A stretch of DNA of 64,000 nt from Ceratodon purpureus. Its lineage: Eukaryota; Streptophyta; Bryopsida; Pseudoditrichales; Ditrichaceae. Shown one piece after another: positions 18,840 to 64,000 of this stretch. Each line of letters begins with the position of its first letter. The stretch's first letter is position 1. The position numbers and the translations under genes are program-made. Where the stretch lies: NCBI GenBank assembly GCA_014871385.1, contig CM026426.1:14229810-14293809 (forward strand). Reading direction: 5' to 3'. The notes under the pieces are model-generated. The model worked only from the letters and a program-made list of their open reading frames with translations, was not told where the DNA came from and did not search any database.

Positions 18840-19125
18840 GGGTCTCTCTATTTTTCCCCATCAAGCGGTGCTGCCGCCCCTCGCACGGGCTGGGGCAGGC
18901 CCGATGGGGGGACGGTCGTTCTCCTCGACGCTTTCGTTCCCCAGTTCCCCCCGGGGTCCCCCGTCGTCGGTTTCCACGGTCCCCCTCCCCGCCCCGTGCC
19001 CGTGGAGGCCTCCGTCCCTGTTCTCCTCCGCCCCGCCCGGCGAGACCGTCCCCCCCCCCCCCTTTCCCCCAGCGAAACTTCTCATCCGTCGTCGACGCGT
19101 CATCCAAGGGGTCGTCTCTCTCGCG
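18840..19125 (+). repeat. Left terminal inverted repeat of MULE-A
   Basis: A GC- and CpG-rich terminal repeat of 286 bp. It matches the right terminus 45326-45597 read on the minus strand, apart from a longer C run and scattered changes. It also matches the MULE-B terminus at 60807 with lower similarity. Similarity to the right copy stops sharply after CGTCTCTCTCGCG, which defines the inner border. Promoters of MuDR genes lie in TIRs; that would fit here but is inference. Confidence 0.8.
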
Positions 19126-19363
19126 CCGGCTTTTGTTCCGCGTCATTATTCTCGCCGCCGCCGGAGAGGGTTGGCGGAATTGCTCCTCCATGGCGGGTTT
19201 GAATCGAGCTTGGAGGTGGATCTGGACAATGGAGTTGACGGTCCTCTTCGAATTCTGTATGATCATCATGCAGTGGAGGTGGGACTCGTGGAGATCCGCG
19301 CAGTTCAGTAGCGGGTGGACGTCTGCACAAGCAAAACGCTGATGTCGTCGACGATGGTCATGT

Positions 19364-22300
19364 TTGAGGGCTGCCATCTACAAGCCGATTCTCATGGGCG
19401 AGGGCGATGGAGAATGCGTGGTGCGACCTGGTGCGGATGACATAGAGGACGACCTCAGCTTTTTTCCAGAGGATGGTTTGGGTTCTGTCAGGTTTCATGA
19501 ATCCACATTGCATGAAGGAGGTGGTGAGAAGGAACTGGCCGGGCGACATGAATGTAGTACTCAACCCCCTCCACATGTCGGTGATCACCTGGGTTCTAGG
19601 GTCGACATCTCTGCAGTTGGAGAGGAGTGGACCTGGGAAGGTGATGTCCATGTCGACGAACTTGCAGGACAGGGAAGAGAGGACTACTCTCTCAAGGAAC
19701 CTGTAGAAGAATCGCTGGATGTTCGGTTTGCTAGCATCCGCTGTGTTTGCCAACGGCTCTCTTCAGGGAGCGATGTAGGTGAGGGCAAAGGAGGGTCGCA
19801 GGAGGAACGGCAAAAATCAGACTTCCAAGACCTAGGTAAAGGTGATCTGGATCAGGAAGCCCTTGTTGGAAGCTGTGCATGTGGAGAGGACGTTTTGGGG
19901 CGACATTGTCCATCCGGCAGCCATGGAAGAGTTGAAGAGATTGACCTAAATGTTACCACAATTGGAAATGGAGAGCTTGGCGGCACTGATGAGCAACCTG
20001 TCCGGAACAGCGATGGAGATTCACTGCAGCCTTCTGGACACCCCATTGTTGATGATGCTGGGACAGAGATGGAGGAAGAGAAGGTACCAAGAAAACGGTG
20101 GAGGATTATGGAGGAGAAGGTGCGGGACTCTGTCCAGAGACCCCCACCAGGGCCATTAAGCCGAGTTGACCTAGTTTGGACCGCTAAGGAGAATGTGGGC
20201 AACGGGAAACGAAGACAAACATAGAAAGCCACAATTCCCTGGGATAGGCTGGACGACTTCTTGGAAGGGGAGATGTCTGCGCGACAACATCCCTGTACCT
20301 TTGTGGAAGTCTCAAAGCAGTGCATGAAGAACGACGTGAGAAAACAGACCCGGGCTGAATCTGCTCTTCAAGAAATCAGGTTTGTTAGTACACCTTCATC
20401 ATTCCTACTATTTCATAATTTCAGCATGTTTCCTTCTAGCCCTAATCATTTTTGTTTACTTGCTTTTGGTGATCCACAATTTTCATATTGTCCTTCTTTC
20501 TCTTTTGAATTTTGAAATAAACTCTATGTATAAGTATCAGTGTGGCTGCTGTCTGTGTAATTTATACTCTTATGTGTCTTGGAAGATTCCTTCCCTTGCC
20601 GATTCTAGTAATCCCAAAATTGAGTTCTGTTGTAACTGAAGTGTGCCTGACCTGAGCAATTACAGGTACCAGTACGGACCGGAGGATTTGAGCCGAAAGT
20701 ACAACCAGACAATGCAAAAGGTTTTTGCCCACACCTTGGTGCAGAGGAAGAATTCCACAAACGAAAAAAAAGCTCTGAAACGTGCTGAGAAGCTGGTCGA
20801 AAAGGCAGCCAAGGAGGCTGAAAAAAAAAACAAACCAAAGAAGAAAGCCAAGCAGCAACCTACTATAGATTTGAATGAGGAAGCTGAAGACGAGGATGAA
20901 GAGGAGTTAGCACGAGTTCAAGAAGCACAAGAGCAGCTGATGCAGGCCCAAGCCTTCATTGAGGCAACTACCAAACCTGCAAGGAAAACCAGGGTAAGCA
21001 AGGTTCAGGGCGGGATGTCCTTGAAATGGGGGTGCCCATGTAACTTTGTAGCCAAGCAGCTTCTTGTTGAACCAACCCTTTGTACAATTCATTTCCACTG
21101 TATGTCGTATACTAACAGGGAGGGGAAACCGTGCCATGGAGCAGAGTTTGGGGGGCAGAGGGCGGGCCTGTCCGGACACCTGTCCGCACAGACCAAGAAG
21201 TGGATAGTAGACACACTTCGTTCAGGAAAGTCTCCAGCATAGGTAATGGCAGACCACAAGGCCGAAGAGATGAGGTGTGCACAGCTAAACCTTCCAGCCA
21301 CGAGGGACACTTTCATTATACCATCGGATGTCTACAACATTGCGAACAAGTTGGCGAAGGAATTGTGGGAGAAGCATCCTAGCGATGCAATGAGTATTAG
21401 GCTCTGGATGGATGAGAACCCGGACAGCTGGTTCCATTATAGGGAATACGGGACAGTACAGCTGAATGAGCCACCACCTCCCGAAGATGACCCTTTCTGC
21501 CTAGCAATTCAGACTGAGTGGCAGCTGGACATGATGATTAGGCATGGTCATGGGAGGGCCTTATCCATGGACGCCACTTTCTCCACCAATGTCGCAGGGG
21601 TATTACACTTAATCCCATTTTACAATTTCCTTTTTTTCAAAATCTTATTTTTTATTTTATCTCCAACTTGAGAATTCTGACTCCGTCCGGAATTTCCCCT
21701 ATCTTGGTTTCCTTGCAGTTCCTCCTTTACACAGTCATGGTCTTCGATGAGTGGGAACAAGGCATTTCAGTGGCTTTTGCCATTCAAGGGCAAAATCGTG
21801 AGGTGTACATCGTGCCATGGCTGACCAAGCTACAAGATCGCTGTTTAGCCGTCAAGCCAGACTGGAGACCAAACGCATTTTTTGTAGATAATGATCAAGC
21901 AGAACTGAACGCCAGAAGGTACGGACACAGTCACTTTCTTAACTGTTGTAATTCAATTCTTTACTTCGTTTTCTCATCCGGACAGGGCATGACAAATTAC
22001 CCCCGACAGGGCTTTACGGTTAGCATTTCAAATCCAGATGGACTGAATTCTTTGGAACACTACAGGAAAGTTTGGCCAGAGGCTGAGCCTGTTGAGGGGT
22101 AGAAGAAGCAAGAAGTGGCCATACTATTATGTCTTTGGCATACTGGGAAGGCGTGGCTGGAAAATGCCACTCAGAAAATCAAGGCAAACTACTTACGGGC
22201 GGAGATTCTCGCAGCCTGTGCAGATCTCATGTACGGCAATGGTATCCTCGAAGGAGATTTGGCTGTCCAGGCTGCAAAAGAGCACTTCCAATTCATCAAA

Positions 22301-23242
22301 GCTAAGTATCCCCAAGCCAAGGCGTTCTTTGTGTACTTTGAAACACATTGGATTCCAAAAATCGAGATGTGGGTGAAGGGGTTTAGGAACATGCCCCATG
22401 CAAACCAAGACACGAATGATGCAGTTGAAAGCTACCATGCTAATCTGAAGGCCCTTCTGAGGATGTCCCGTTTGAAGTTCGATGTTAGGAGAGTAGACTG
22501 GCTGATTTATCACCTATTGAAGGATGTGATTATTCACTATTGGTATGCTGTCCAGCTTAAGCTGTATGGATTCATCAAGAACGGGAGAGCAGAAGGCATC
22601 GTTGCAAGTGCAGTGATTCGAGCCGAAGAAATTCCGGATGAGCATGTGAAGATATGTGAGGAGCAGGATATTGCTTATGTTGCATCCTCGAACCACTTTC
22701 CTGCAATATGGGTAGTGACCAGTCCAAACTCGGACTGGGCCCATTGCAATTGCCCACTTGGTATGCGCGGGAACGTTTGCAAACATGCAATCAAGGTTTT
22801 TAACATGATAAATGTTAGGGTACATCCGGGAGATATTATTAGGTATGCTGGCACACTTAGGGGAACCATTCAGGTGGGGTTCAAGCCAACTGGAATTTCA
22901 GAATTAGCCGATGTTGGGGTCGTGGAGGTCATTCCGGACAGAGGAAAACAGCCTGCCAGAGATGATGACCCGGAGACATCAATGCGAGATACCGATGCTG
23001 TCCTAGCCGTACTCAGGGCAGATGCATGGGACAATCCAGCACTAAGACAAAACTTTCTGGCAATGCTAAATGAGAACAAGGGCAAGTTTGCGTCTTTGAA
23101 GGTGAAGGCAGCAGCTGGGCTGCTTCATCCACTCTCTCAACCAACATTTAAGAAGACAGATGGTCCGAAGAACCTTAGGAGGTTCAAGGCATGCTCTGAG
23201 ATGGGAGCTAAGAAGCCGGGGGGGGGGGGGGGGGGGGGGTAG
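19364..23242 (+). pseudogene. MULE-A transposase (mudrA-like, SWIM zinc finger), broken by three UAG codons
   Basis: This is a Mutator-like DDE transposase. Exons by splice motifs and by comparison with MULE-B: about 19364-20379, 20666-21599, 21719-21918, 22066-23242. Order: acidic N-terminus; PWDRLDDF block; Lys-rich coiled coil (about 20760-20900); a Cys/His DNA-binding motif of WRKY-GCM1/FLYWCH type (CPCNFVAKQ...CTIHFHC...CHGAEFGG); helical block; MULE core with first Asp in LSMDATFSTN (codon 21570-21572), second in FVDNDQAELNA, Glu in NDAVESYHANLKALL; SWIM finger CNCPLGMRGNVCKHAI. In-frame TAGs lie at 20222-20224, 21240-21242 and 22100-22102. MULE-B has Lys, Gln and Gln at these places. 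A run of G (about 23218-23239) turns the end into poly-Gly before TAG, probably a slippage error. The true start codon is uncertain. Confidence 0.88.
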
Positions 23243-23489
23243 TCTAGGAAGTAGAATTAGTCTGTTACATTTCAGTACATAGAGGTTGTATAAAACCATT
23301 TTTTTTTTAATATACATTTTGTACGTATAATGATGGTGTCTCTGCACATCGTTGTGACTGTTTATCTGTTTTTTGATATCCCTAGTTGTTATATGAGTTT
23401 CAGGACATTTCTCTAAGTTTATTTACTTTAGACAGTCAGACTTTAGTCATGTCCGGAAATACGTGCTCCTGTCCGGATGTTTGGTAAAT

Positions 23490-25255
23490 GGGAGTCTCAT
23501 CCTACCCCCACCCCATAGACCAAGTCCTGTGTATATTCTCTCACGCCTCCTTTACTCTTTTTTATACCCTCTCCCACTCGTCTATCTTCCTTCCGGGCCA
23601 TTCATCATTATATTTCCGAAATATTCTTCATTTCTTTAGGTTCCATTCACTCCCTCAGCCATCCCCCTACTAATCCTCTAAGAGCCAAACTCATACAATC
23701 TTCTGTTGTTATCTTTTTATTTTTTTCCACTTCTCTGATGTTTCCTTTTTTTGTTTAAAATTTTGTGAAATTATTTTTTCTACCCCGTTCGATCACTCTC
23801 TGAATGTTGTCTCTGATCTCTAACATACTCTCCCTCATACCCCCTTTCATTTTTTCATTTTTTTTTTTTTTCCTTTTCACTTATTTATTTTCCCATTCTT
23901 CCAGTCTACCTCCACTTCCCCTCAATCGTCTCTCCCCCGTCTGATACTCTCCCTAAAACCCCCTTATACTCCCTTTCACTCCATTTTTTTTTTAAAATCA
24001 TTTATTTCATTTTTAATATTTCATTTCACTTAATAATGTCTCCTTTCTTTCAGCATACTCCCACTTACTTCCACTCCTCTCTTCCACTATCCCATATTCA
24101 ACCTCTTACCCCTCTTCATTTTTTATTTTTCTTTTTTTCTTTTCTCTTTTTTTGTTTTTTTTTTATTTTTAAAATGCTATCTTCTTTCTTTCAGCATACT
24201 CCCACTTCCTTCCACTCCTCTCTTCCCCCATCCCATACTCAACCTCTTACCCCTCTTCATTTTTGATTTATATATTTATTCTTTTCTCTTTTTTTTTTTA
24301 AATTTTTTTTTTAAATGCTATCTTCTTTCTTCCAGCATACTCCCACTTTCTTTCACTCGTCTCTCCCCCCTCTCATACTCACCCCCTTACCCCTTTTCAC
24401 CTTTATTTTTTTTTTTTTTTCTTTTCTTTTTTTTTTTTATTTTAAAAAACTGCTATCTTCTTTCTTTCAGCATACTCCCACTTCCTCGAAGTCGTCTCTC
24501 CCCCCTCTCATACTCACCCCTTTACCCCTTTTCACTTTTTTTTTTTTTTCTTTCAGTATTTTTTTTTTCTTTTTTTTTTAAAAATTCAATCTCCTTTCTT
24601 CCAGCATACTCCCACTTCCTTTCACTCGTCTCTCCCCCCTCCCATACTGACCCCCTTACCCACTGTCATTCTTTATTTCTTTTTTTTTCTTCCATTTTTT
24701 GTTTTTTTTTTTTTTTTTTTCTATTTCTTTCTTCTTTCTTCCAACATACTCCCACTTCCTTTCACTTGTCTCTCCCCCCTCACGTACTGACCCTCTTACC
24801 CCCTTTCACTCTTATTTTTTTTTTAATTTTTTTTTTACCCTCAATTTTTTTCCCCTCTTTCCCCCTTCGCTCACTTCTCTCTCCTCTTCCCTTACTGATT
24901 CCCTTCGTACTCTACCCTACACCCCTTACTATCCCCTTCATTTTTTTCCATTTTTTTTTTTTTTTTTTTTCTTTCTCTTATCTTCTCTCCGTCTTTGCTT
25001 ATTTACCCTTCAGTTTCACCTCCAAAAGCACTTCACATTCTACCAAACATCCACTTCCATCCTCTTCCATTTCGAATTTCTTTTTTATAAAGATACTTTT
25101 TTAATTCTTATTTTTTTTCGTTTAAACCTTCTTCTCCCCTCTTTCTCAATTTTCCCCATACCATTTCTGAAAGTAATTGATTTTTTTTTACTTCTGTTTA
25201 TTTCTCTAGTTAACCTTCCATTTTTTTTTCCCTTTTTCTTTTTTCATTTCCTGTC
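23490..25255 (+). repeat. Pyrimidine-rich tract with about 140-bp minisatellite
   Basis: About 1.8 kb in which the plus strand is nearly all C and T. Six good repeat units carry the core CAGCATACTCCCACTTCC, beginning at 24051, 24192, 24333, 24468, 24602 and 24742 (spacing 134-141 bp), each followed by T-runs of varying length. Degenerate copies lie on both sides. The tract sits between the stop codons of the two convergent MULE-A genes. Long frames across it encode only Phe/Ser/Pro/Leu runs and are not genes. Confidence 0.85.
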
Positions 25256-25358
25256 CAGGACAATTGAGGGGTCTGTGTAAACCTGGATAGGTTGCTGAAG
25301 CCTGCTGGCCAGAAGGGGGATCAAACCAAAAACCATCAACAAACAAGACAGCTAAAAC

Positions 25359-25608
25359 CAGGGTTTTCTATTCGGTCGTGACGTGGCCCTCTTGCGTCAT
25401 AATGTCGGGACGTCACGACGGTTTAGAGTCACGACCGGACGTCCCATTCGGTCTTTATTGTGACGGCTCAACTCCTTTAGGCAACCTTTTCATATATACT
25501 TTTTCATTTTTACACTACAAAGCCTATTATGACGTCGGAGGACCCTCGTCGCGACCCATTCCGACGTCGCGACGGGATAGTCACGACCAGACAGGATAGA
25601 AAACCCTG
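25359..25608. mobile_element. hAT-type MITE with perfect TIR and 8-bp target duplication
   Basis: The terminal repeats CAGGGTTTTCTAT and ATAGAAAACCCTG (13 bp, perfect) bound a 250-bp non-coding segment. It is flanked by the 8-bp direct repeat GCTAAAAC (25351-25358 and 25609-25616). TIRs starting CAGGG with 8-bp duplications are typical of hAT elements. The interior repeats GTCACGAC/GTCGTGAC/GTCGCGAC motifs in both orientations, a likely subterminal binding array, and is CpG-rich. It has no coding capacity and must depend on a transposase made elsewhere. Confidence 0.9.
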
Positions 25609-25836
25609 GCTAAAACTGCATCACACTTGAGCATGGAGGTGTGGTTTTGATTATAACCGTGTATCACAATCGTTCTGTATACTTGGTCTGTGTCATTGTC
25701 ATCCAAAAATTGTGTCTCCCGAGATTGTTTTAATATCCTAAAGACAGATAGTCCGGAAAGACACCCTAAAAAAATAAAAAATTAAGGCATCATAGGAGTA
25801 TATTACTGTTCTATCAACCAGCCACTCCCACTACTA

Positions 25837-28780
25837 TCATAGAGAGGAACACCACACACTCGGTAGGATAACAACGGGCTCAGTGGACTGCCTGTCCGGA
25901 TCGTCCCCTTCGAGTAATGCCTCTACCTTCTCGGCCACAGAGGGCTCCACGGCCGTCGCGGGAGTTTGGAAGTCTAGGTCCTAGGGGTCGTCGCCGGAAC
26001 GTGAGGGGCTGGGATGACGTGGGCTCGGTAAGGCGGGCTCGGTGCGGGCGAGGACTCTAAGCTTGTCAAGGGTACACAAAATCTGGGAAGGCCTGAACTC
26101 ATCTAAGTCTTCCAAATCCTCCGTCATGTTCCACACTTGTAGTTTGCCGTGAAGATGATGCACGCTGTCCCGGTGGAGCTCCGTCGCTGCCTTGAACAGG
26201 GCATCTCCACCCGCCCCGTCCGGCTAGGTCCCGGTGGCCTCCACGGACCAGAAAATGTACCCCAAGTCCAAGTTCTCCCTGTATAATAGGACTGTCCGAA
26301 AAGCATTGGCGACCTTCTCCTTCTCCACACCTGGTCTCTCAATCCACATGTCCCGGAGCTGGTCCTTCTTCCCCAATGCCAATGTATCAAGACAGGCACG
26401 TATGAAAGTATCTTGCCTCCAGCCGTTGAACTGTGTCACCTGCCCCCCCCACCCCCCCCCCCCCCAATCCACATAGTCGTCTACCACCAACCTAAAAGTC
26501 TCGAAGGATTCTCCATCCAAGTCCATTGTTGGGAAGAAAATCTTACCCACTCTGATGAGCTCCTCCATGGCGAGCAAAATCTGGTCAGACTGACCCTCCA
26601 TGAACTCATTGGTGAGTCCCAGGACTGGACGGAGCATGGGTATACGAGCTCCCAACTCGCTCCTCGCAAACAACTTAAGTGTCTGTGCCATGTGCAGTGG
26701 CTCGTTAACTTCTCCAATCCTCCTCCCCTCCATTTCCATCCACTTGAGAAGTCCTTCAAACTCCTCGTCAGAGTGCTCATACGGCCTCGTGATGCACTTG
26801 GGTTGAAGGGTCAAGAAAAAATCCCGGAAGAGGGGCGACCACCACCACTCATCCTCCCCCTCTGCCTTCCTTATCATCTGGTCATAACGGGCCATCTCCT
26901 CAGCCAGATACGCGTGTCGGTTGCGGTCCACCTGCTCAATCTCTCCCTCGAAGTCACGTTGCTTGGCAGGAAAGTAAGTACATCATCGTGGTGGAGGTAG
27001 AACAAATGAATTTCCTTCCTGATCTCGACCTCAAACTTGTAAGTGAAGGCTGCCTTACACCTTTCAAGTCCAGCCACGATTGCTAAGGGTAATGAGTCCT
27101 GAAATAGGCAGCCATCTCCACACGTTAGTGCATTTCGGACTTTCTGTCACACCATGTCCCCTACTCCAATCCATCCTGACCACATTATTGTCTTCAAAAA
27201 TGCGCCAATAGGTAAAAAACCCTGTCCTGAATACTTACCACGAGATCGGGATTGAATTGTAGTGCGCCTCATGCCGCGAACACCGTACCACCTAACTGGC
27301 CCTGCGAGTGGAGGCTCCAAAGCTCATCCATTGGGGCCTGGAGGTCGCCCATATTGTCCCCCGTGATTATCTCTCCTATGATCTCCTGAAGACAATACAG
27401 CCCCGGAGGCTGGCCAGGTCTGCGTGGAGCACTCTCGAGGTCGACACTGGGGAAGATTTCCTTAGCCCGGGATATAGCGGCCACCTTAACCGCACGCCTC
27501 GCCTTCACTCCCTCATCTTCAACCAAAATCGCCTCATGCCTGACTATTTTACGGTCAAGGGGCGTCGTCGCAGTTGCTGGTCCTCGCTTACCCCCTTCCA
27601 CAATCATATCGTCCCCTGGGGAGTGTAGTGCAGCTCGAACAAGTTGTACTTCTTCCTTGCCCGGGCTTAGAGTCTCTCCATGCAACCTTCTCCTCTTCGA
27701 CACGGTGAACTTCAGTCTAGTCTTGCCCCCCTTTGTTTCTGCCTCACCCCCTTCCTTCAGTTCTTCTGATCCACGGCCTGCCCCTCCATGCACTTGTCCT
27801 GTTATCTTCTCCTTCCCCTTCACCAAACCAATCCCCCTCTCCTCTTCCAATCGGCCAGCTTCGTCTCCACCATCAACCTTTGTCGTCTTCCCTCCCTTAG
27901 AGGGCCCGCCCGGTCCGCAATTCTGCCCTACTCGATTGGGCGAGCTCCCCTTTTTTGTCCCCCCCCTTGCCGTCCCCTCCTGATCCAGCCCTCCTCGCAG
28001 TCCCTGCAGTATTTCTGCAATACAGAGCCCTTTGTCCAGCTGGAGACGCCTCTTCACCCCGGCCTCCCAGTCATCCCGCCCATCGCCCTGTTTTTTTCCT
28101 CCCTCAACGCCCACCCGGTCCTCCTAGTTTCCCAGCGCAGCCCCCGCGTCCCCAGCATCGCCGTGGTCCACATTGTCCCCCTCGCCGTCGTCACCCCCTT
28201 CCCCTACCCTGCCCCCGTCGCTTCCCCCGTCGGTGCTTGCCCCTTCGTCGTTGCCGCCCTCCAAACCGACCGTCTCTTCCCCCTCGTCGCTGCTCCCATC
28301 GTCATTCTCTTCCTGAGAATTCCCACTGTCCGAACCTGCTTCCCCCCCCCCCCTACTCTCGCTTCCGTTTGCCGCCCCCCGTTGCAATTTGCCCGCCATC
28401 TTCCTTCTCTCCTTCCCTTTTGCTGATTCTCCCCACCGTCTTCTTCTTTACGCCCGCACGCCCTCCCTTCATCCTCTCCTTCACCTTCCCCCCGCTCCCT
28501 CTACTTCCCCCTTCACCCGCCCCTCCTCCCCCGGCCCATACCCACTTCCCCCTACTCTTTTCTGCACCCCGCTTCACTTGCTTCTTCCCCCTTTTCCCGC
28601 GGCCTTCTTCCTCGTCTTCCCCTCCGCTCTCGTCCCACACCCATTTTCCAGTGTTTTTTTGGGCCCCCCTCGCACTCCTGCGACGGCCAGCATCAGCGCG
28701 TTCTCCCCGCTCCGGACTGCTCAGCTCCACGACTTCCTTCACGTTTCCCGGTGACGTTTTGGCTGCGCGGGGCTCCTTCT
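25837..28780 (-). pseudogene. MULE-A second gene, 3' half (Lys/Gly/Glu-rich linker and C-terminal domain)
   Basis: Continues the gene that starts at 45034 and was split at 28780/42702 by CACTA-2. From right to left: a highly charged Gly/Glu/Lys linker (28780-27270); an exon ending near a GTAAGT donor at about 27239; an exon from about 27100 with a folded-looking domain (FKYEVEIRKEIHLFYLHH-like start, RHAYLAEEMARYDQMIRK, DEWWWSPLFRDFFLTLQP, DTFIRACLDTLALGKKDQL); and a short tail to TGA at 25837-25839. In-frame TAGs lie at 28124, 26224 and 25981, and a TGA at 27269. A further frame change occurs at a G run near 28345 and another near 26960. I recognise no family for the C-terminal domain. Coding sense continues past each TAG, so these are breaks, not natural ends. 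Confidence 0.6.
28778..28780. repeat. Left TCT target duplication of CACTA-2
   Basis: TCT directly precedes CACTACAAGG at 28781, and TCT directly follows TTCTTGTAGTG at 42701. The 3-bp duplication is the CACTA signature. Confidence 0.9.
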
Positions 28781-28782
28781 CA

Positions 28783-30163
28783 CTACAAGGAAAATGGTGA
28801 CGAATTGACTAAAATTTGACAAAAAAAATGCCAAATTGACGAACCCACCTGTCCGTCCTTGTAGTTATGTCATTTATGCTAAACTTGATATCAATTGACA
28901 AAATCCCGTCAACTTCTGTGACACTGCAAAGGTTTTCATTCTCTAACTGAAGTTTACATCCGAGGTTACATTCGTCTATAATTTTAGATAACCGTTTCGT
29001 ACAGAGGCGTAAATGTTTTTAAAAAAATTCAAGTGATAAATGATATGTAGATCAAAGAATCACATTTTCTGTGTCAGTAGTCTTACACATGCAAATAGTA
29101 TTATATAATCCCATACCAGTAAATGTGAGATGGACAAGGCATTGAAAGTGTGACTGAATACCAAATGCTGACATCATTGGCTACATGCAATACAGTATAT
29201 AGTATATATATGCAGGCATTAAGAAATTCGTTTCCACTGTAAGAAGTACCTTACTAATTTTCAAGGTAAATGCATATAAAAAAGCATTCCAATATTGTCT
29301 TCCTTTCTACAAAAACTGCAGTGAATGTACAAAAAGTTCAGAGTGTCTACTTCCAATCAAAATTAACTTGCCAGCACCAAGGATGCAATTGGACCAATCA
29401 GCATGTTTTAGAGTTCTGAGGTTCAAGTTGGAATTCTTATTGTACAGAACATGGACAATAAGTATGCCGATTCGAAATGATTATATTTACCTAATTCGGC
29501 CACTCTATTGGGGTACTCCAACATTCAACACTCTGTTCTGTTTTTGCATAATGTCGACTTTAGCAAACTGCACGAAATTTGACGCATATCTTCTGTTACC
29601 CTGCCAAGTTCAAGAGAATTCAAGGACTCAGCTTTCGGATTACGTTAGAAAATCCTCTCATGAATTAGCAAGAATCAAAATATTGAATTACCTCTCCGAT
29701 ATTGTTAACCTTAAAAGCAGCGGGGATATAAGTATGCAGCCAGAAGTATCTAAAGAAAGTATGATAAACTGTTTTCAAAAAATATATATTAAACCAATAT
29801 GTTCTATCCAATCACTGTATCTTGTCACCTTATTCAACATTGGAAATGACAATTGTTAAGAACATGCCCTCTTCATGAGGAAAAAACGAGGGAAAAAATA
29901 ATAACTACCAATTCCTTCCATACTTCTCAACTGCTGATAAGAAATATATTACTATTCTGATGTGGACATTGTTTTTATCACTTTCAATATGTTGAGTCCC
30001 CTTCGAATTTATATTCCTCTTGGCAAAACGCTTACAGCCCTAATGTTACACTAACTGAACTGCATTCTAGTTGACATCATAAGAACCTGCTAAAAAGTCC
30101 GTTTCCAGAGCACCTCACAAATTTCGTCATCTGTACACATTTTACCACTAAGAAGCTTACCTC
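28783..30163. other. Left non-coding part of CACTA-2
   Basis: AT-rich, downstream of the tnp2 stop. Subterminal repeats lie in the first 150 bp. A 163-codon plus-strand frame at 29368-29859 has no recognisable features, and I do not call it. Confidence 0.5.
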
Positions 30164-35061: not shown

Positions 35062-35444
35062 TGGAACACTATATTCAAGTCGACAAAATTCCTTTACATA
35101 CCGGGGAAGATTCTGTCTACACTAAGCTATGAGCGTCAAGAGGTTCACATGAATTATAGTCGATGTCTTTGATGAGTAACTAGTCCCACATTTAGTTGAC
35201 AGACAGTTATGAATGTCCACCGAAAATACAGACAACGAGGCTCTGATCCTTCAGATAAACTTTAATTGGAATGGGCGAGGGCAATCCATTTCAAATGCCA
35301 AACATCACTCTAAAACCATATACACATGAAACGCAAGTACAATCACTCGGACTAGATGGACATCCAATGATCCCACTCTGATATATTCAATTCCGTCAAA
35401 TTATACATAACCAACTGCCAAATCTTCAAAGTAGGAAACATTCT

Positions 35445-35867
35445 TTACAGTGCACTGTTGTCCAAGTCCGCGGGGACGCTGTCTAATACTTTCTCCATCT
35501 CAGCCTTAAGTGCTACGGTTTTCTCGAGGATGACACTGGAGAGAACCATCATTTCTCTCAAAATCCTTTTCCTCGCTTCTGTTCTACACTTCTCTCCCTC
35601 TGTACAAAGATTTCCTACTCGGTCTTTCTTTTCAAGCACATCAACGCCCACCTGGAGCAAGACGTGTCGTTCTAGATTGCTGCTACCGGTGGATACTGCT
35701 TCCTCACTCCGTAAACCTAGCGCTCTTTCCATTGCCTCTGTGGAACCTGTGGTGTTCCTATAGGAGCTGTTGGGCATTTCTGTTTGAATTAGATATTCTG
35801 TCGTCGCCCTTCTAAGAAGAACTCCTACTGTAATTGACCTAGAATGATTTGTACAAAAGCAGTTCAA
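35445..35867 (-). CDS. Unrecognised helical frame in CACTA-2
   Basis: 140 codons upstream of tnp2 on the same strand. The second half is predicted by eye to be helical, with repeated Glu/Lys/Leu/Ile (KRILREMMVLSSVILEKTVA, LKAEMEKVL). No family is recognised. It could be part of an upstream exon of the tnp2 unit. The reverse strand is also open over this span, so confidence is limited. Confidence 0.35.
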   Translation of the reverse strand: MNCFCTNHSRSITVGVLLRRATTEYLIQTEMPNSSYRNTTGSTEAMERALGLRSEEAVSTGSSNLERHVLLQVGVDVLEKKDRVGNLCTEGEKCRTEARKRILREMMVLSSVILEKTVALKAEMEKVLDSVPADLDNSAL

Positions 35868-36185
35868 TGTAAGTTCAACGTAAGGAGTGTATACACGAAG
35901 GCCTATTCTATTTCCAAATAACGAACACCAATCACTCTAAAGCAACGCGAATTCATACAGACTGGTATAGAAGGGCGTCGTTCAGATCATTCTGTGGAAG
36001 TTTTAGAGAGAACGTACCTGAGAATTCCGAAGTTTTAGACGTCGTAAACAACTGTCACCTGCTTCATGCGGTGTCCATAGCATTGGTTGGAAATCTGCAG
36101 GAATAATGTCCAAATTAGCACAGGGAGTACATTTTCGCAGTACAATCTACTTCTCACCGAAGTGACAGATTAGGTGACGAAGGCA

Positions 36186-36792
36186 TTATAGTCCATGAAT
36201 GAGACGCACAGAGTAACGCGTAGGGTTGTGAGGGACTTCACTGTGACTTGGTACAGAATGTAAGAAAGCAATCACGGTTTGAGAAAGAGGACATACCTCT
36301 TCGCCAATGTCTACTTGTTGTACCACTTCATTCTCGCTTGTGTGAGAATATTTGCATCGCACAGTCAGATCGCTCCGTTCCGTCTTGGGCGCAAACGAGA
36401 CGCGCCCCATTAATTGCACTGCTGCTGTCGGGTGACAAGTAGAAGATCAGAGCTTCAATATGAAAGTATCCGAATACGAATTGCATAGGTATAGGACCAT
36501 AGTGGAGAATGAAGCGGATTTGAGAGCGAAAACTGGGGTTGAGAACCTGTTGTAAGTATCTTACCTGAAAACCCACGTCGTCCCACACTGAGTTCTGGAA
36601 GTGGTAAAACTGTGAGTCCGCCATTGTATTTATTAGCCTGCAACTGACCCCCTCATTGATCGGCATTTGAAGTGCGATGTCGGTCCAGGAGTGGTCATGC
36701 GTTTCGTGACCACACTTGCCATACTCCGTTCCCGAACAATCAGCACCACCGTCAAGTTCCAAAAATACAACCTGAGAAGGAAGTGAATGCAA
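36186..36792 (-). CDS. Unrecognised minus-strand exon group in CACTA-2
   Basis: A frame from 36792 (start region MHSLPSQVVFLELDGGADCS) runs to a GTAAGATACT donor near 36565, after VWDDVGFQ. A second frame covers about 36419-36186. Its Cys/His residues (CSGTEYGKCGHETHDH) could bind metal, but I recognise no family. The gene would start close to and diverge from the plus-strand tnpA-like gene. Confidence 0.3.
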
Positions 36793-37006
36793 TTGCGCAG
36801 CCAGATGGGAGACTTTAAGGTTTTAGAAAGGGCTCGTAACAGATGTCGTTCATTTAGGGTTTTATGGATGAAATCAAGCCCACGTACCTGCTAGTTGAAG
36901 GCACAGACTTCGAAGTTTCTCAACCTTTTTTTTTTTGTCACCCAATTTGTCATTTGCGCTTCTCATGGTGTAACCATGGTTTTTGGAACCACCATTTCCT
37001 GTGCAG

Positions 37007-40000
37007 ATATGCTGCGCACAACGCAAAGCTGTTAGAAGAAGCACAGACGGCATTGACCACAGGAGAAATTAGAACACCGTCAGTATAGAGTCCGGAACCG
37101 TCTGAGGGTGGAGAAGGTGACGATAAATCAGTGGAGGGCGGTCCTGCAGGTACCAGTGACGACAGCGCTAGTAGTGAGGGTGTAAACGAGGTGGAAAACT
37201 CTGACGCCAACATTCTCGACGGTACTGCGTCGTCGTCAGAGTTTTCAAACAAGGATTCTGAACATGCATGCTCAGAATCAGGGGAGTCGTCTATACCCTC
37301 AGATGAAACGACTACTGACGGCGAGTACTCCGAGTACAGTTCTAGCAGCGCTGACGAGGACAGTACTAAAAGCGATACCTCTTCCGGTGGCCAAGTTATC
37401 CCTAAGGTATGTTGGAGGACTCTAAACGTGGAAACTGTCATTGTGTATGTAATGTTGCTTGATTAGTGTAAGTGATGTCCTTCACTTCACATACGTTTTA
37501 CTGAGAATGAACCTAACAGCACAATTAGACATGTGTATGGTTATGTATATGCCTATAAATTACCATTATGTAGACTAAATTGAACTTTACCAACCTCATC
37601 TGAGTACTTCTACCACGCGTGGAAGAAGAGTATGTACTTGCAGATATTTAGGTGGCTGCATCTCTATTGTTCTGCTTTGGCATCGGAATGAGATGGAGCT
37701 GTCGCAGCATGTTTGTCTTGTAGTGAATACTTGCATGCAGAGGACCAGTGAAGGACAGTAACATATGCAACTTCGGCTATTACGACCGAATGATGACACA
37801 CCATATTTGGGGATTGCAAACGTAATTGGAGAAATGAATGTGCAGGCTTCTAGGAATGTAGTGCTCACAGATTCGCAGCCCAAACGCTACAGCGAAAGGT
37901 TAGCACGTCTTCAGACATCACGAAGTCTGGTTCACGAAGAAGGCAATGACGGTGCAACAGGTGGAACGACATCAAACAAATCCTTACAATGCACGGTAAG
38001 CATCGCCCATCTTTGAATACGTGGCAATTTTGTACAGTATCATAGTCATTTTAATATGAAGTGCACGTTAGGGAGTGGCCATTACTCTAACCGATCAGAT
38101 ACACTTGCAGTTAAACAAGAGTAGTGAGGAAGTGAAGGTAACGTTGAACTTAGTACACCAGAAAGGAAAAAAAAAAATCGAACAAAGGGCTGAGGTGGTA
38201 GAAAGTGTACAAAGCAGGCCAGCAACATCACCAACAACTGTAAGTTATACTCACACATCTAATGAATTATGTGTGATAGAGAACATTGGCTGTTACGCAT
38301 GGATCATGGTGTATACAGTTACTACTTTGTTTAGGGGTGGTAATGTGAATACAGTAAAACGTTTTTATTCAATGAATATGATCATGTCAATCGTTTGTAT
38401 AATATTGCTAGGAATCAATGAATTCCATGTGTTTGCACAGATACATGTCCTGTATAATTTTGCAATGAACTTGAGAGGATGATGGTAAAGTGGGTGCATT
38501 TTACGAGTTAAAAATTGCAGTTTATGGCTCCGCCCTCGACTTCTCGTAGAAGCAAAGAGAACTTCGTGAAGTGGAACGAGCAATCAGAAGTGGTAGAGAA
38601 TCACACAGAAGAAGTTGGGATATCACCACCAGTTGGACCAAGAAAAAAAATCCGAGCAACAAGGGAGAAGCTTGTTCCAACTCTGCCGGTGGAGCGAATA
38701 GCTAGTGAGTCCAATAGTTTGCAGAGAAGTGAGGGAACTCGCGAACCTTGCAGGGAAATGCGAGCAAGACCGCCTGAATCATCTTCTAGGCCTTCCCCAA
38801 CGACTACGGTTGTTGCTCAAAAAAAATTCGTTCCACCGAAACCAACATCACATTTAAACAAAGAAACAACACAAGGATCTACAATGAATTTACAGGAGCA
38901 GAGACCTGAAGGAATTTCATCACCAGCACGACAACCTCACCAGAGGGTCCACCTACGTTCCCAAGAGATTGTGTGAAGGGAAGTATGTGGAAGTCCGAAT
39001 GGTAATGCGAATAACTCAAGTTGAGGAAGACCTCCAGGTAAGCTCTACGTATTTTTTACCGATCGTATTTATCAGTGTACAGTTCGAATTTTAGATGTGT
39101 ACATGAACTTCCGTTATTCTTGTAGAGATATGACAATGCATTTTTTCCAGTCATAGTAACTATTATTTACGTTGCAATGAAAATAAAATAAAAAAGTAAA
39201 ATATATCAAAGCTAGGAAGTTACAGTAGACTCTAACAATTTCAACACTTCAGTAGCAGGACAGAAATTGGTAGCACACCATCAAAACGGAGTTCCCACAA
39301 CAGGTGGAAACACTCGCTCACCAGCACAACGCCAAGTGTTCAAGCCGTCAGGATCAAGGATGCGGGGATCGTCTACACCGCTAGCATCTCCAGGTAGTCG
39401 TCCACATTGTAATGAAGAGAGGGGAGCAGACTCACATGGACGTTCCTCACATTTCTCGGGCAGACATGGAGAGAGAAACCGTGATCGTGGGCATGAAGAT
39501 CGCCATCATGCTCAATATGGAGAGCGTAGTCCAAATTACACCCGAAATGCAAGTCCTCGTGTGCGAGAACAAGGCCGACGGTCTCCAACTCCAATTAACG
39601 CAAATGTCACAGAAGTTGTTCACTCCATTTTCTGAATATATGAAATTGGATTGCTGCAGTTAGATGTTTTGCTTCTATATGACAAGACTTTGCTTAAACA
39701 AAATGAACATGAGCTTATAACTGCATTAGTATGTTTTGCACATTGGCACAGTCATGTACATTATGTACGTCTCACACAGTCCTATAGGAAACGCTCTGCA
39801 CAGAATTTAGTACTCTTGTCAAAATTGCTTGTACATATACAATGTAGCCTGAGATGACGTGAACATTGTCATTGAGCTACTAACGTAATCATGTATAATC
39901 GATGAGTTACATGTTGGCTCAACGCCATATTTAGCGAGTAAGAGTGGTACATTGCATGAACTTTTAGATGAATTAATTGGCAACTGGGGTGGTAATCTAA

Positions 40001-41534
40001 CAGAGTTTGCTGTTAATTACAGGAATGGGAAACCAAAACATAGTTTACGGAATCACGGCGTACCACACGCCGTCATGAAAGACAAGAATCAAGACCGTAT
40101 TCATTATACAATGACGACAACGACGACGACATCAACGCAAGTTGTGAAGACTCTCAAGAAGACAAGCATGGAGAGAGCGAGGGCCATCTTGAAGAGACCG
40201 TACCCGCTGATGTCGGACAAAATAATCCATTCCCAACAGAGACGGAGAGTCGGAGGGAACGTCGACAAGCACAGGCAGCTCGAGAAAGGGAGGGCGAAAG
40301 ACGAAGGCGCGAGGGGCTCCCACGAAATTACCTACTCATAGACCAGTACAGAGGGGAGCCATACAGACAGGGTGTTGGAATGTGGCGCAAGGAGCTCATG
40401 CTGTTATCGAGGAAACTAGACCCTGCAATAGGAAACATAAACAACCAACCGGTCAACCTTGTGAAAGAGATTGCAGATTGGATTCAACACACATGGGAAT
40501 ATAGTGGGGAAATAAAGGACAAGTGTGTGAAAGACGTTATAGCTCGTGGAGTGGCGTTGAGGCGGTCAGACCTATGGAAGAGAATCGTTAGGGGGGATCC
40601 AAAACCGGACGATCTTTCCGATAGAACATGGAAGTCGTTACAGCGGGAGCTAGAGAATCCTGCAACTATTAAGAAGCAACAGAATTGCAGCCGAGCGAAT
40701 GCAAGTAGGGTGAATTATGGAAGAACGGGACCTTCTGGTGAGGTAGGCGTCCGTAACAAACTGCGGAGACGGTATGGAAGATCACCTGATCCAGACAAAG
40801 TCAGATTTGAGATGGCTCGGGACAAGGGGTATGGAGGGCGCTCTAAGCGTGACGCACCGTCACAATATGTGATGCATGCAAAGCAGTTGACCACCGATGC
40901 AATGGAGGAGGGTCCCATCTTAGGTACATCTTATCATGAGCGAAACAAATCCACGGGCCGGGAAATATCTCCTCCTCATACATCTGATGGACCGCAAGAA
41001 GAAGTGATTAAGGAAAACGACAATGTTGAACCTCCTCAAGAATTACCGGACTCAAATATATTACAGATCTCAGAAGATCAGCTGGCACAGCATCCAATGG
41101 TTATGCGCATGATGAAACAACTTGAGGCTCTTCAAGAGAGGTAGAGTCTTCCCACGCTACAAGGTGAAACCCAACATGACGAGGGAATTCCAAGGGCACC
41201 ACATAATGAAATATCAGAACAGGTACCGGTGGAGGAGGAGGTTCCCGAACAACGCCAAAGTGCAGTTAAGAGGAAAAGCAAACAAGTGAGTGTGAATGTT
41301 GTGGTACTCCGGTGTCTTTCATTCTGATGCAACAAATCTACTTAGGGGAATGATTGAGCAAGGACCTGGCATGTGAACGTAAGCAATGACTGCATTTGCA
41401 TTATTATGTCACTGTTGTGGTCTTCGACTGATGAAATGCTTTTGTCACAGCGAGAGGGTGATGCGGTGGATCTGGAAGGCAGTGACGCAGTACGGAGGTC
41501 TGGTCGGTCTAAGAAAAGTGCCAAGCTCTCTTGA
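37007..41534 (+). pseudogene. tnpA-like CACTA protein (Transposase_24-type), CACTA-2, three UAG breaks
   Basis: Likely exons: 37007-37405 (acidic Ser/Glu/Asp), about 37750-37993, about 38071-38237, about 38521-38973, one near 39260-39635 (Arg/Ser/Pro-rich), 40022-41285 and 41451-41534. The main domain (40330-41000) reads MWRKELMLLSRKLDP, WIQHTWEYSGEIKDKCVK, TWKSLQRELENPATIKKQQN, then RVNYGRTGPSGE and PDPDKVRFEMARDKG. This is the pattern of plant EnSpm Transposase_24 proteins. The last exon is basic (RRSGRSKKSAKLS) and ends at TGA 41532. In-frame TAGs lie at 37086, 40041 and 41142; after the last, 47 codons lead to a GTGAGT donor and the final exon keeps phase. Early exons are the least certain. 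Confidence 0.65.
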
Positions 41535-42701
41535 CTTTAATCTCATCCGTAAGTTTTGTTACTATACTTTTTTAGTTAGGTAGGTTGAGAGTTTTATAAC
41601 AATGAAGTTCAAACTTTTGGAACGGAAAAGTCGTCAGAATTTAATTTGTGATGCTGATTAATGGAAACCACCTGTACGATTAGCGTGATTGTTGAATTTA
41701 GAAACCTGGTTAAGAAATCACCCGTTTACATGAGACTGATAAGGTCGTGGTACCTTACGTTATTCGTTTTGTACATTTGATTTTTATTCTTGACAAGATT
41801 CATATCGATGAACTCAACCAATGGATTCCTTATTGAATGTTCATGGTATTGATTGCCAGGGAATTAATCATAACAGGCCGGGCATCTTCACCAGTACAGG
41901 TGTATATGCATAGAGCTACGTCGAAAGCGGAAGGAGTCAGTTTCATGTTGGAAGACAAAGACGTATAGGATCCGTCACATGTGTTGCTGAAATGTGATGA
42001 AAGTGGAACGTTGCTGTGTATTCTGTGGAAGTAATGTATTCACAGAATGTTGAATATAGCCCTGTATTTGTTCTCAAAGAGTAATTATCAATGTCAGAAT
42101 AGCAAAGTAAACCTGATATAAGTGAACTTAGTGCAAAGTGTTGGCGGATGTATAAACTGGAACTCCTAAAAATGATCAGGAATTTTGGACGACGTCTGAG
42201 TGTGCTTCCGTGCAAAACACTGTGCTGTACACCGTACATGTGGACCCTAAAAACATATCCACGTGGACTATAATATCATTTTTTTTTTGGGAAATGTGGT
42301 GATACTCATTGGTCAATATCAGAACACGTCATCAGCCACCTGCATATTTGAAATAATATAAATCCAGTTTCTCTATTTTACTATATATCCATGTGTACGC
42401 AGTTCCCCTAAAATCTCTAGCAGGAAGGTTCCCGGAAAATACTTGAAGGCGCGTCACTTATTTTAACCACGGTAATTTAGTTTTCTGGCGTAAGAGTAAA
42501 ATAAAGCTGACGTGGAAGGAAAATCCAGCGTGGCAAGAGGTACACAGGCTGTGAAGCTGACGTGTATTTCTGTCCAAGATGACAGCCGAAATGACAGAGT
42601 TCTATAAACTAAGCGTCCGAATCAGGGTCTCCTAATTAACGGGACAGTTGACTGACTTCTGTCCAGTTTTTGTCATTTTGGCCACATATATTCTTGTAGT
42701 G

Positions 42702-42704
42702 TCT
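42702..42704. repeat. Right TCT target duplication of CACTA-2
   Basis: TCT follows the right terminus TTCTTGTAGTG and matches the left flank at 28778-28780. Confidence 0.9.
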
Positions 42705-45034
42705 GCCGATCCTCCCCATCACCGTCAGTGGCCCCTTCCGCCTCCACCCCTAAACCCTCACCTTCCTCTTCGGAAGACGTCTCCCTCCGGTCCCGCTTCT
42801 TCCCCCCTTTTTTTTTTCTTTGCTTTCCACGGCTCCTGTCGCTTCCCCAACATCTGCCATGGTATCCAAAGGTTGTACTTCTGGAAAACCGCCCGAGCAA
42901 CCTTGTTCCCGTCGAGACCCCTGGCCGGGTAAAACTTGAGTGGCCCGTAGTCTCTATATTCGTAACAAGGACAATGCCCCATCTTCCTGTGCCACCCCAG
43001 TGTTGCTTTGTCGCAGAATTCTTGGTCGCAGTACTTGCAAATAAAAGGTATCTTGAACCGGCACTTATCCTTTTCCTGCTCTCTCTCCTCCTCTACTCTA
43101 TACTTCCAATTCACCTCGACCATCATGAAGTCGTGTTCTGTGGTCGTAAAGGCATCTCGATTTGGCTCATACTCTGCAGCGACACTTGTGCAGACCACCA
43201 CTTCCTCCATCCCGAACTTTCCCTGAACCAGTAGCTGACGATTTCCATAACACATTTCAGTAACGACACTCATCCAAAGATTAGACAGAACCTAAACCCC
43301 TGAGTCCAAAAATGGATTAGCAAATAATCAATAAAGTGTATAAGAGAGACTTACTCCTGGCACGATCCCTTGTTCAGGTCCGTATCTTCTTCTGCCATTC
43401 CTTGGACAGACTTTTAACATTGACGAAAGTTGCTCTGTTTTCCAACACGTCCACTGCATCTTCCTTGGACAGCTTGGACAGATCTGGCAATTCCGGATTG
43501 TTTATCTGCCCATTAAGAACATACAAAGGTTAGCTGACACATAACCAATCCAAGAAGGAAATCGAAGACAATAAGGAAGTTGTGGATGGCAAACTACCAG
43601 TCCAAACACAGACGAGACGACAGTAGAGAATTTCAGGACAGGCAATTACTTCAAGACAGTCAGAGGAAAACAGGGTGTGGAGAAATAAAGGTACAAAGTA
43701 GTATCACGCAGAAGGGGTCTTAGTCGAGAAATAGCGGGAAGGAGGGGAAAAAAATAAAGGAAGAGGATGAGTGGTAAATAAATCAAATTCAGAAAGCAAA
43801 TGGAAACCCGAAGAATATAAAATAAATAAATAAATCCCCCCAAAAAAAAAAAATGACAAAATGAAACTCTGGATGAAATTATGAGAGAAGGCGGAGATTA
43901 AAATAAATAACAAAAAAGAAAAGAAAAAAAAACAACACTGAAGACAGGCACTCAGTTTAGGACAGTCCAGTAGGCAGTTTCAAAGGGGAGACGGGGGGAA
44001 AAAAAAAGAAGGAACCAAAAGGCAGCAAAACCGTAGATTTGCAATCGTAAAAAAGCCAAGAACATAAGCATTAAAAAATAAAAATAAATAAAAAAATGAA
44101 CATTATTTGAAAAATTAAAGAGAAAACGTAAATCATAAGAAAGTCAAATTCATGGAGCAAGGGGAGGAAAATAAAAAGAAAAACAGAAAAAAAGGACGTA
44201 GGTGAATTCCACGACAGGCAAGGAACAGAATGGGAGAACTAAGACAGGTTTCAGAATCCCAAGATAGGCCATAGTGTAGAAGGAAATAAAATATGTATCC
44301 AAAAATGAAGGGGGTGAGATGGGCATTTCAAGACACATACCGCATGGAGGAGGAGATGAGAGAAAAGATGCGAAGGCAAGGAAATCAAAAAACCGAATAC
44401 AACACCAAAATAAAGAATAAAAACAAAAAGCTGCAAGACAGAGAACAAGCGGAAGATGAGTGACACGAAGTGAGTGATTAAACCCTACGCAAGAAAATGC
44501 AGGTACAACAAATAACGAAATCAAAATAAAAGAAGTCCTAACCAACGATGCATCCCACACCTAATCCCAACGTCAAGACATGACAACGTACATGGAGAAC
44601 GCCGTCGACTGAACTGCTAAAACGACAAGAGGAAAATGACCAGAGAGAGCGGGAAATGAAGAAGACGATAACATAACACCATCCACAACGACAGAGTAAG
44701 GACAGACTGACTGAAGCTTGTGAGAAGAATGAGTTTACAAAAACTCCCGGAATGGAACCTAAACCGAAAAACAAATGACAACAACCAAACCAAAAGGACA
44801 TACACCGATGCAGCTAAGAAGTGACTCAAGACAGGCCGAAGTAATGGAAGTGAAAACCTAAAAAAAATAAAAAATGATCCATCCAAGAATGGCAACAATG
44901 AAGAAAAACCACGACGACAAGACACATAAGGAACTACTCACATTGATAGAACAACAACCAAAACAATGAAAACAAGGAAACCATGTATCATGGGCGAACT
45001 TACTAGGTCATACAATTTCTTGTTCCCCATCGTC
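42705..45034 (-). pseudogene. MULE-A second gene, 5' half, with C2H2 zinc finger
   Basis: Starts at ATG 45032-45034 (MGNKKLYDL) with a GTAAGT donor at once. A 1.5-kb pyrimidine-rich intron follows. Exon 2 (about 43351-43505) reads NPELPDLSKLSKEDAVDVLE and ends at GTAAGT. Exon 3 starts at about 43302 and holds a C2H2 finger at about 43050-42980 (ICKYCDQEFCDKATLGWHRK, then MGHC). A Lys-run and acidic linker follow to the CACTA-2 insertion. After taking out CACTA-2 and one TCT, the frame of 42705 joins the frame of 28780. Breaks: TGA 43374, TAG 43293, and a frame change at an A run (plus-strand T run near 42810). The product would be a nuclear DNA-binding protein, by inference. It is not recognisable as MURB. 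The right TIR lies 290 bp upstream, as for mudrB. Confidence 0.6.
43560..44990 (-). repeat. Purine-rich (plus strand) first intron of the MULE-A second gene
   Basis: The plus strand is dominated by A and G, so the coding-strand side of this intron is pyrimidine-rich like the 23.5-25.25 kb tract. It repeats short GGACAGG/AAGACAGG motifs. Frames across it are low-complexity Phe/Leu/Ser runs and are rejected as genes. Confidence 0.65.
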
Positions 45035-45325
45035 TTCAAACCCCCTGAACTTGTAAGTTCGACGACGAGCTCCTTCGAACAGCAGCTACCGGCCGGGGAC
45101 AGTCTCCCGCATTCACCAACTCCCAGTAGCCCCTGAACCCGCTAACCCCTCCCACATTGCTCGCCTCCTTCGCTACGGTGTCCCCTGCATTCCCTCCATT
45201 CGGCATCCATGTTGCCCGAACCCTATACCGCTACTCAAAATGCAAAACAAAACCCTAATCGGAAAACATCCTAACCCTCTCGCAACACCCAAGACACAAG
45301 GTGGGAGCAAAACGCTGGCGCTCCT

Positions 45326-45597
45326 CGCGAGAGAGACGACCCCTTGGATGACGCGTCGACGACGGATGAGAAGTCCCGCCGGGGAAAGGGGGGGACGGTC
45401 TCGCCTGGCGGGGCGGGGGAGAACGGGGACGGGGCCTCCACAGGCGCGGGGCGGGGAGGGGACCGTGGAAACCGCCGACGGGGACCCGGGAACCAGGCAA
45501 CGCGAGCGTCGAGGAGAACGAGCGTCCCCCATAGGGCGCTGCATCTGCCCGCGCGAGGGGCGGCAGCACCGCTTGATGGGGCAAAATAGACAGACCC
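45326..45597 (-). repeat. Right terminal inverted repeat of MULE-A
   Basis: Reverse-orientation copy of 18840-19125. The outermost bases on the minus strand are GGGTCTGTCTATTTTGCCCC. It is followed at 45598 by flanking DNA leading to the maspardin gene. Its inner border is GCGAGAGAGACGACCCC at 45326. Confidence 0.8.
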
Positions 45598-63800: not shown

Positions 63801-64000
63801 ACCCCTTGCTATTGAGCTGCACGCTTTCTGTAACCTTCTAAGATTTCCCCCTCACTGTGCAGGAAGGTCTGGCCGGAAGCAGAGTCTCTCCCTGGACAGA
63901 AGAAGGACGAAGTAGCAATTCTGCTCTGCTTGTGGCATACGAGAAAAGCGTGGTTGGAGAACGCCACTCAGAAGATTAAGGCTAATTATTTACGGGCTGA
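60807..64000 (+). mobile_element. MULE-B, left part of a MULE-A relative, cut by the window end
   Basis: Starts GGGTCTCTCTAAATACCCCC and continues with a GC-rich terminal segment (to about 61105) related to the MULE-A TIRs but more diverged. The transposase reading frames from 61335 onward match MULE-A closely in protein sequence and intron positions. Its right end and any second gene lie beyond 64000. Confidence 0.85.
61335..64000 (+). pseudogene. MULE-B transposase (mudrA-like), partial, catalytic Asp lost
   Basis: Exons by comparison with MULE-A: 61335-62344, 62465-63404, about 63530-63732, 63863 to beyond the window. Order as in MULE-A: acidic N-terminus (DLSAVGEDWRW), PWDRLDDF, Lys-rich coiled coil, Cys/His motif (CQCNFVAKQ...CHGTEFGG), MULE core. 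One in-frame TAG at 61686-61688. The first catalytic residue is changed: LSMGATFSTN (codon 63375-63377 GGT) where MULE-A has Asp. The intron before the VMVFDEW exon lacks a clear AG at the position used in MULE-A, so splicing may be damaged or shifted. The second acidic residue (VDNDDAELNA) is kept. The SWIM part is outside the window. Confidence 0.85.

Follow-up and report, generated by a model that had tools for sequence, protein, structure and literature searches.

Maize MuDR has long terminal inverted repeats (TIRs), a 9-bp target site duplication (TSD) and a transposase gene with a second gene facing it. These features recur in a moss family that we describe here from element A, at positions 18840-45597 of a 64,000-nucleotide stretch of Ceratodon purpureus DNA (the window; C6:14229810-14293809 in an assembly of 151 contigs and 362.5 Mb). 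Unlike in MuDR, the second protein of the moss elements, the product of gene 2, is predicted to be a C2HC zinc-finger protein of about 1,100 aa; MURB is small and is not known to have clear relatives. We report that Mutator-like elements (MULEs) of this family usually pair a transposase with gene 2 and carry short repeated words that, with one exception, change with the finger. We give a probability of roughly 0.55 to the reading that the gene 2 protein recognizes its own element's word, most likely in an anti-silencing or activating role like that of VANC.

VANDAL elements of Arabidopsis encode factors that recognize their own family and lift its silencing, and in the case of VANC short words in non-coding DNA guide the loss of methylation (PMC5735166, PMC10398659). 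The word of VANC21 is YAGTATTAY, and those of VANC6 are AGTTGTCC and AGTTGTAC (PMC5735166). The moss elements resemble VANDAL and Hiun elements with VANC in having an element-encoded factor and short repeated words that differ between families, and the VANC6 and moss words share TGTCC, which may be chance. However, VANDAL21 carries VANA, VANB and VANC, three genes in all (PMC10398659), whereas the moss elements have two by homology, no search having been aimed at a third. PMC5735166 nowhere uses the word 'zinc'. Finally, methylation loss has been demonstrated for VANC, whereas for the moss system it is a conjecture.

Other MULEs share single aspects of this layout. Spectre elements of aphids and other arthropods also have a zinc-finger open reading frame (ORF) adjoining the transposase ORF inside the TIRs, but the finger is of the C2H2 type and the complete element has 74-bp TIRs and an 8-bp TSD (PMC6446971). 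In the Abermu MULEs of grasses, ORFR is likewise read opposite to the transposase, although its function is given as unknown and it is absent from rice Osa_Abermu (PMC9168764). The Mutyl element of yeast has an extra gene with a DNA-binding role, mutB (PMC6446971), which unlike gene 2 is oriented the same way as the transposase. A description of gene 2 itself was not found in our searches of the open-licence PMC literature.

Gene 2 accompanies the transposase across the genome

Three genome searches define the sample. The left TIR of element A gave 42 matches, with 40 of 90 candidates scored; the C-terminal transposase ORF (22103..23242) gave 109 listed matches, with 108 of 783 candidates scored and two of the matches sitting in a single copy; and the finger ORF gave 150 matches, with 150 of 309 candidates scored. 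The 42 left-TIR matches resolve into 15 distinct TIR pairs. A finger match lies in all 15 and a listed transposase match in 11, and a twelfth pair with a transposase is MULE-B (C6:14290616-14301272), in which that gene is split by an inversion. The sequence-only reading of this DNA had asked whether TIRs, transposase and finger gene invariably co-occur, and had taken TIRs without a finger gene as the sign of a captured passenger. In these pairs the association held in full for the finger and in part for the transposase, and TIRs without a finger match appeared in none of them. Among ten unpaired ends, eight adjoin both genes, one adjoins a finger only, and one, C6:437992, adjoins a stop-bearing transposase with no finger among the matches listed. 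Three of the TIR pairs that hold a finger and no listed transposase (C8:2417371-2422932, C6:68584612-68593244 and C2:20941794-20958471) are possible deletion derivatives that have kept gene 2.

Ten of the other 14 TIR pairs were fetched, and both genes were present in 10/10, plainly convergent in nine and rearranged in MULE-B. This bears out the earlier proposal of an independent two-gene MULE lineage with a zinc-finger product. Intact relatives, which that reading had suggested looking for, were also found; one is the copy on C11 (locus L025), whose gene 2 frame is open. A perfect 9-bp TSD was read by eye in 8/10 of the fetched relatives, with six of nine positions matching in the C12 copy and none found for C1a (locus L022). 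TIRs of 263-325 aligned columns were recovered in 11/11 elements, the window copy included, and the arms are free of mismatches in C11 (323/324 columns, one gap) and C13 (297/297). Together these comparisons identify a two-gene Mutator-like lineage with many copies, some of which appear to have open genes.

The same linkage is seen from the side of the transposase. A convergent finger match lies within 30 kb downstream of 98 of the 109 listed transposase matches (within 10 kb for 91; median gap 4.65 kb), in contrast to two with a same-strand finger downstream and four with any finger upstream. Gene 2 exons also adjoin 4/4 further transposase copies picked at 49-72% identity. The 11 listed transposase matches that have no finger partner include ten on C6. 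Conversely, for 53 of the 150 finger matches no transposase partner is among those listed; 25 of these are in the lowest-scoring rows, 123-150, a distant group at about 38-52% identity whose transposases are about 49% identical (two seen) and mostly fall outside the scored list.

Substitution patterns indicate that gene 2 is under purifying selection. In the finger and C-terminal exons of distant copies, the proportion of nonsynonymous differences (pN) is 0.115-0.36 and that of synonymous differences (pS) 0.66-0.92, the latter close to saturation, while within the A group pN is 0.023-0.041 against a pS of 0.058-0.122. From this set seven misframed C13 finger rows were left out and five were recomputed in frame. 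Transposase pN is lower in distant pairs (0.045-0.154), and gene 2 therefore appears to evolve faster. The elements at C11:3754300-3767189 and C12:7720552-7733666 may be mosaics; compared with the window copy, the C11 element is close in the transposase (pS 0.475) and far in the finger exon (pS 0.84).

Repeated words change with the finger

The 6-mer CTGTCC ranks first or second in all four element groups compared, with 27-35 occurrences per element (n=5) against a mean of 6.4-7.4 and a maximum of 14-16 in 200 dinucleotide shuffles. Because its sub-words are likewise enriched, maximal-order Markov scoring masked this word, which becomes visible under models of order 2 and order 1 as well as against the shuffles.

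Twenty copies, including MULE-B, whose split finger reads T, were classified by their finger and by word counts relative to the maximum of 100 shuffles. The fingers fall into types T, N, H and E by a single varying residue, which by standard numbering is presumably +3 of the helix, the classic specificity residue. The words that go with them are CCTGTCCGG for T, CTGTCCTAA for N, CTGGCCTAA for H and CGTCCT for E. In counts, TGTCCGG exceeds the shuffle maximum in 13/13 T-finger elements (6-39 vs 3-7), TGTCCTA in 3/3 N-finger elements (14 in L042, 14 in L043 and 6 in L046, vs 3-4), CGTCCT in 2/2 E-finger elements (21 in L041 and 20 in L050, vs 6-7) and TGGCCTA in one of two H-finger elements (L047, 9 vs 4). 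In three control stretches drawn from the window, all five words stay at or below the shuffle maximum, with one stretch equaling it. The rule for T, N and E was fixed before five more copies were read, and the four of these with T, N or E fingers all fit, L046 and L048 modestly so; the fifth, the H copy L047, gave a new word one base off the N word.

For the T-class word, specificity could be gauged genome-wide by searching for two CCTGTCCGG sites 5-35 bases apart. There are 29 such paired sites, against 0 for a reversed-pattern control. Each of the 29 has a listed transposase or finger match no more than 15 kb away, a zone covering 1.5% of the genome; for 28 the distance is at most 10 kb, and for 27 it is at most 5 kb (0.6% of the genome). 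They adjoin 19 elements (15 fetched for this check plus C6a, C11, C12 and MULE-B), and the finger is T-type in 19/19. Since T is the common class (13 of the 20 classified copies), this is agreement, not proof.

Within elements the words occur in introns, in exons and in the intergenic gap, and their clusters in introns and between the genes are reminiscent of the VANC system. A strictly non-coding distribution, as in VANDAL21, was considered and rejected for the T and E classes, whose words also occur in exons.

Some copies hint at how words may multiply. The C7 copy (C7:7632667-7649950; loci L035 and L036) exceeds its near relatives C5 and C6b in length by about 4.6 kb and has 39 TGTCCGG words against their 9 and 10, which suggests local amplification. 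In intron 2 of C11 gene 2 (L025:2957-3155), a small word array has repeated surroundings (ACCTGTCCGGATGCTCTG twice), as in tandem-repeat spread. CTGTCTTG is also frequent in the C5, C6b and C7 elements, with 12 copies each, and may be either another word or a variant form.

Structure of element A and gene 2

Element A is an old, broken copy of this large two-gene family. Its features, with those of the neighboring MULE-B, are as follows.

18840..19125, plus strand: left TIR of element A, beginning GGGTCTCTCTA
19343..20224, plus strand: ORF with the 5' portion of the transposase gene; identity to the corresponding MULE-B region is 72% over 20090-20381
20640..21242, plus strand: transposase ORF that includes the N-terminal region rich in Cys and His; the L029 ORF, at 336 aa, is longer
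21542..22102, plus strand: middle transposase ORF; the homologous L029 ORF matches PF10551 MULE, E 5.8e-4
22103..23242, plus strand: C-terminal transposase ORF with a CLWH motif and SWIM finger, the genome-search query
24039..24837, no strand: tandem repeat separating the two genes, period about 141, 5.7 copies
25837..27098, minus strand: gene 2 exon 4, encoding the C-terminal domain, with a disrupted frame in the window copy; likely ends by comparison with L025
27239..28780, minus strand: gene 2 exon 3 after the insertion, with a charged linker and a conserved stretch preceding the C-terminal domain
28781..42701, minus strand: CACTA element inside gene 2 exon 3, TSD TCT, with Transposase_21 at 32989-33768
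42702..43234, minus strand: gene 2 exon 3 before the insertion, C2HC zinc finger
43355..43505, minus strand: gene 2 exon 2, with an in-frame stop in the window copy; probable ends
45004..45030, minus strand: predicted gene 2 exon 1, ATG at 45030, followed by GTAAGT
45326..45597, minus strand: right TIR of element A
60807..64000, plus strand: left part of MULE-B, a second related element leaving the window, with a perfect 9-bp TSD

The ends of element A are inverted repeats, as the sequence-only reading had said, yet calling them near-identical overstated the match: over 287 aligned columns identity is 86.4% with gaps and 91.5% without gap columns. A TSD of 8-11 bp flanking the element was looked for and none was found. 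Mutator-type ORFs do enter from the left end, in line with the mudrA-like transposase reported there. In the window these ORFs give sub-threshold matches to SWIM and DUF5575_C only, and the Pfam scan of ORF 21542..22102 gave nothing; the L029 transposase scores 20.7 bits against PF10551 MULE, under that family's cut-off of 27.6, and 20.1 bits against SWIM (cut-off 19.6). These matches identify gene 1 as a MULE-type DDE transposase and, with the long TIRs and the TSDs, place the family in the Mutator superfamily. In MULE-B an internal inversion has breakpoints in the transposase and inside the zinc finger, so that both genes are split.

Gene 2 runs on the minus strand from an ATG at 45030 to a stop at 25837, convergent with the transposase. 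The second, convergent, multi-exon zinc-finger gene and its stop had been recognized correctly from the sequence, with the ATG placed four bases away, at 45034, and with an exon model spanning 19 kb that does not stand. A 13.9-kb CACTA element, with CACTACAAGRA termini at 28781 and 42701 and the 3-bp TSD TCT on both sides, splits exon 3, and the exon pieces to either side align with the unbroken exon of C1a. A giant intron is ruled out by these termini and the TSD within exon 3, and the gene is one of about 5 kb, not 19 kb. Besides the insertion, the window copy has stops and frame breaks relative to intact copies; it is a pseudogene. Gene 2 of the C11 copy can be resolved into four exons with GT-AG boundaries that together form one open frame coding for about 1,100 aa, and from this comparison we infer a four-exon gene. 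The predicted product has short N-terminal exons, a single C2HC finger, a charged, variable linker and a conserved C-terminal domain.

The finger follows the pattern C-x2-C-x12-H-x5-C, and its ligands C, C, H and C are invariant in 11/11 rows of alignment A2. The C2H2 class assigned by the sequence-only reading was rejected because the last ligand is an invariant Cys, making the finger C2HC; the Pfam zf-C2H2 match is below its cut-off. A profile search with the finger domain against PDB returned ordinary zinc-finger proteins and was not used. The C-terminal domain, described earlier as unrecognized, has stayed so in profile checks against Pfam and PDB: a Pfam scan of 12 rows gave six families, each in one member (best E 0.0027), and the PDB search gave one weak, unconvincing match (E 0.085), neither of which was used. 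Structure models suggest, at low confidence, that it may be mostly helical.

Neighboring features

In a Pfam scan, the nested CACTA element, whose ends are intact, matches Transposase_21 and DUF4218 above cut-off and DUF4216 below it; of its ORFs across 35445-41144, those at 40044-41144 and 38512-38976 gave no Pfam hit. Outside element A, a different MULE transposase lies at 14853-16932 on the minus strand (PF10551, E 2.3e-12), and ORFs at 830-4875, also minus, resemble, by eye only, a further CACTA tnp2-type transposase. The plus strand at 51782-54754 carries a host-like single-exon gene whose 990-aa product contains DUF627 and DUF629.

The contig C6 is 110.5 Mb long. In Ceratodon purpureus the U and V sex chromosomes each exceed 100 Mb and the genome totals about 360 Mb (PMC8000587), and C6 is probably a sex chromosome of this moss. 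It makes up about 30% of the genome and holds 57 of the 109 listed transposase matches, including many of those that have internal stops.

Discussion

Because a single finger and lineage-specific words change together, binding of its own element by the gene 2 protein seems to us the best explanation. The protein would bind the many words and so mark the element's own DNA, and its C-terminal domain might then recruit a host activity that keeps the element unmethylated or transcribed. Binding of the words is likely given their agreement with the finger; that it serves anti-silencing or activation is a conjecture. More tentatively, at a little under even odds, this could be an independently evolved second case of VANC-type self-recognition, in a moss Mutator lineage, in which the +3 helix residue helps to set the word and joint switches of finger and word found subfamilies that escape control by, or of, older copies.

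Several observations weigh against self-recognition. Finger class and word class both track the gene 2 tree, with about three switches, and since both follow that tree shared descent can account for much of their agreement. One H-finger copy, L044, has no clear word (TGTCCTA 3 against a maximum of 2, TGGCCTA 0); its finger has a Phe after the next Gly (LGFH), and its strongest 7-mer is AATAAGA, with 9 copies. In L046 and L048 the excess is modest (6 vs 4) and the word is not the top 7-mer, and C5 and C6b, both T-class, have 5 copies of the off-class CGTCCTG against a maximum of 4. By a partial coding mask, a VANC-like bias towards non-coding DNA is marked only for the N word (0.25/kb in coding sequence vs 2.49/kb elsewhere) and the H word (0 vs 2.18/kb), the T word showing it weakly (0.80 vs 1.37/kb) and the E word not at all (3.68 vs 3.23/kb). 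One finger on its own gives only weak DNA binding if the protein does not multimerize. The structure models are also poor (mean pLDDT 56.7 for the C-terminal domain and 40.9 for the finger), and Foldseek found zero matches in PDB at E 0.001.

As the main alternative, gene 2 might be an accessory of transposition that acts like MURB or the CACTA protein TNPA, its binding to the words serving to join the ends or aid re-insertion. A convergent second gene does occupy the mudrB position, a finger match is present in every TIR pair, and MURB is said to be necessary for insertion (PMC6446971, PMC9168764). The moss words, however, are scattered through introns, exons and the intergenic gap and do not cluster below the ends, which makes this role somewhat unlikely; the binding words of CACTA elements are subterminal. 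The word data point more to a VANC-like role than to the stand-in for MURB that had been suggested from the sequence. That something else targets the words, either the transposase or a host factor controlling the family, while gene 2 merely shares their history, would fit the descent of both classes and the misfit of L044. We consider it improbable, given that within the N clade the change of finger from N to H in L047 accompanies a one-base change from CTGTCCTAA to CTGGCCTAA, and that 4/4 later elements match the finger-residue rule.

It is hardly credible, finally, that the finger gene is a captured host gene with no role for the element. Gene capture by MULEs is well known, and the 53 finger matches with no listed transposase partner could be taken in its favor, but both genes are present in 14/14 relatives chosen by TIR or transposase (13 convergent, MULE-B rearranged), and the linkage holds across 49-94% transposase identity under purifying selection.

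Recognition of its own words by the gene 2 protein, if true, would be an unrelated, zinc-finger version in a moss of what VANC does in Arabidopsis, and would mean that MULEs evolve self-recognition repeatedly. It would also hint at what mudrB and other second genes are for. Set against TGTCCGG, TGTCCTA, TGGCCTA and CGTCCT, the fingers T, N, H and E would offer a natural set of single-finger proteins, each paired with a candidate target.

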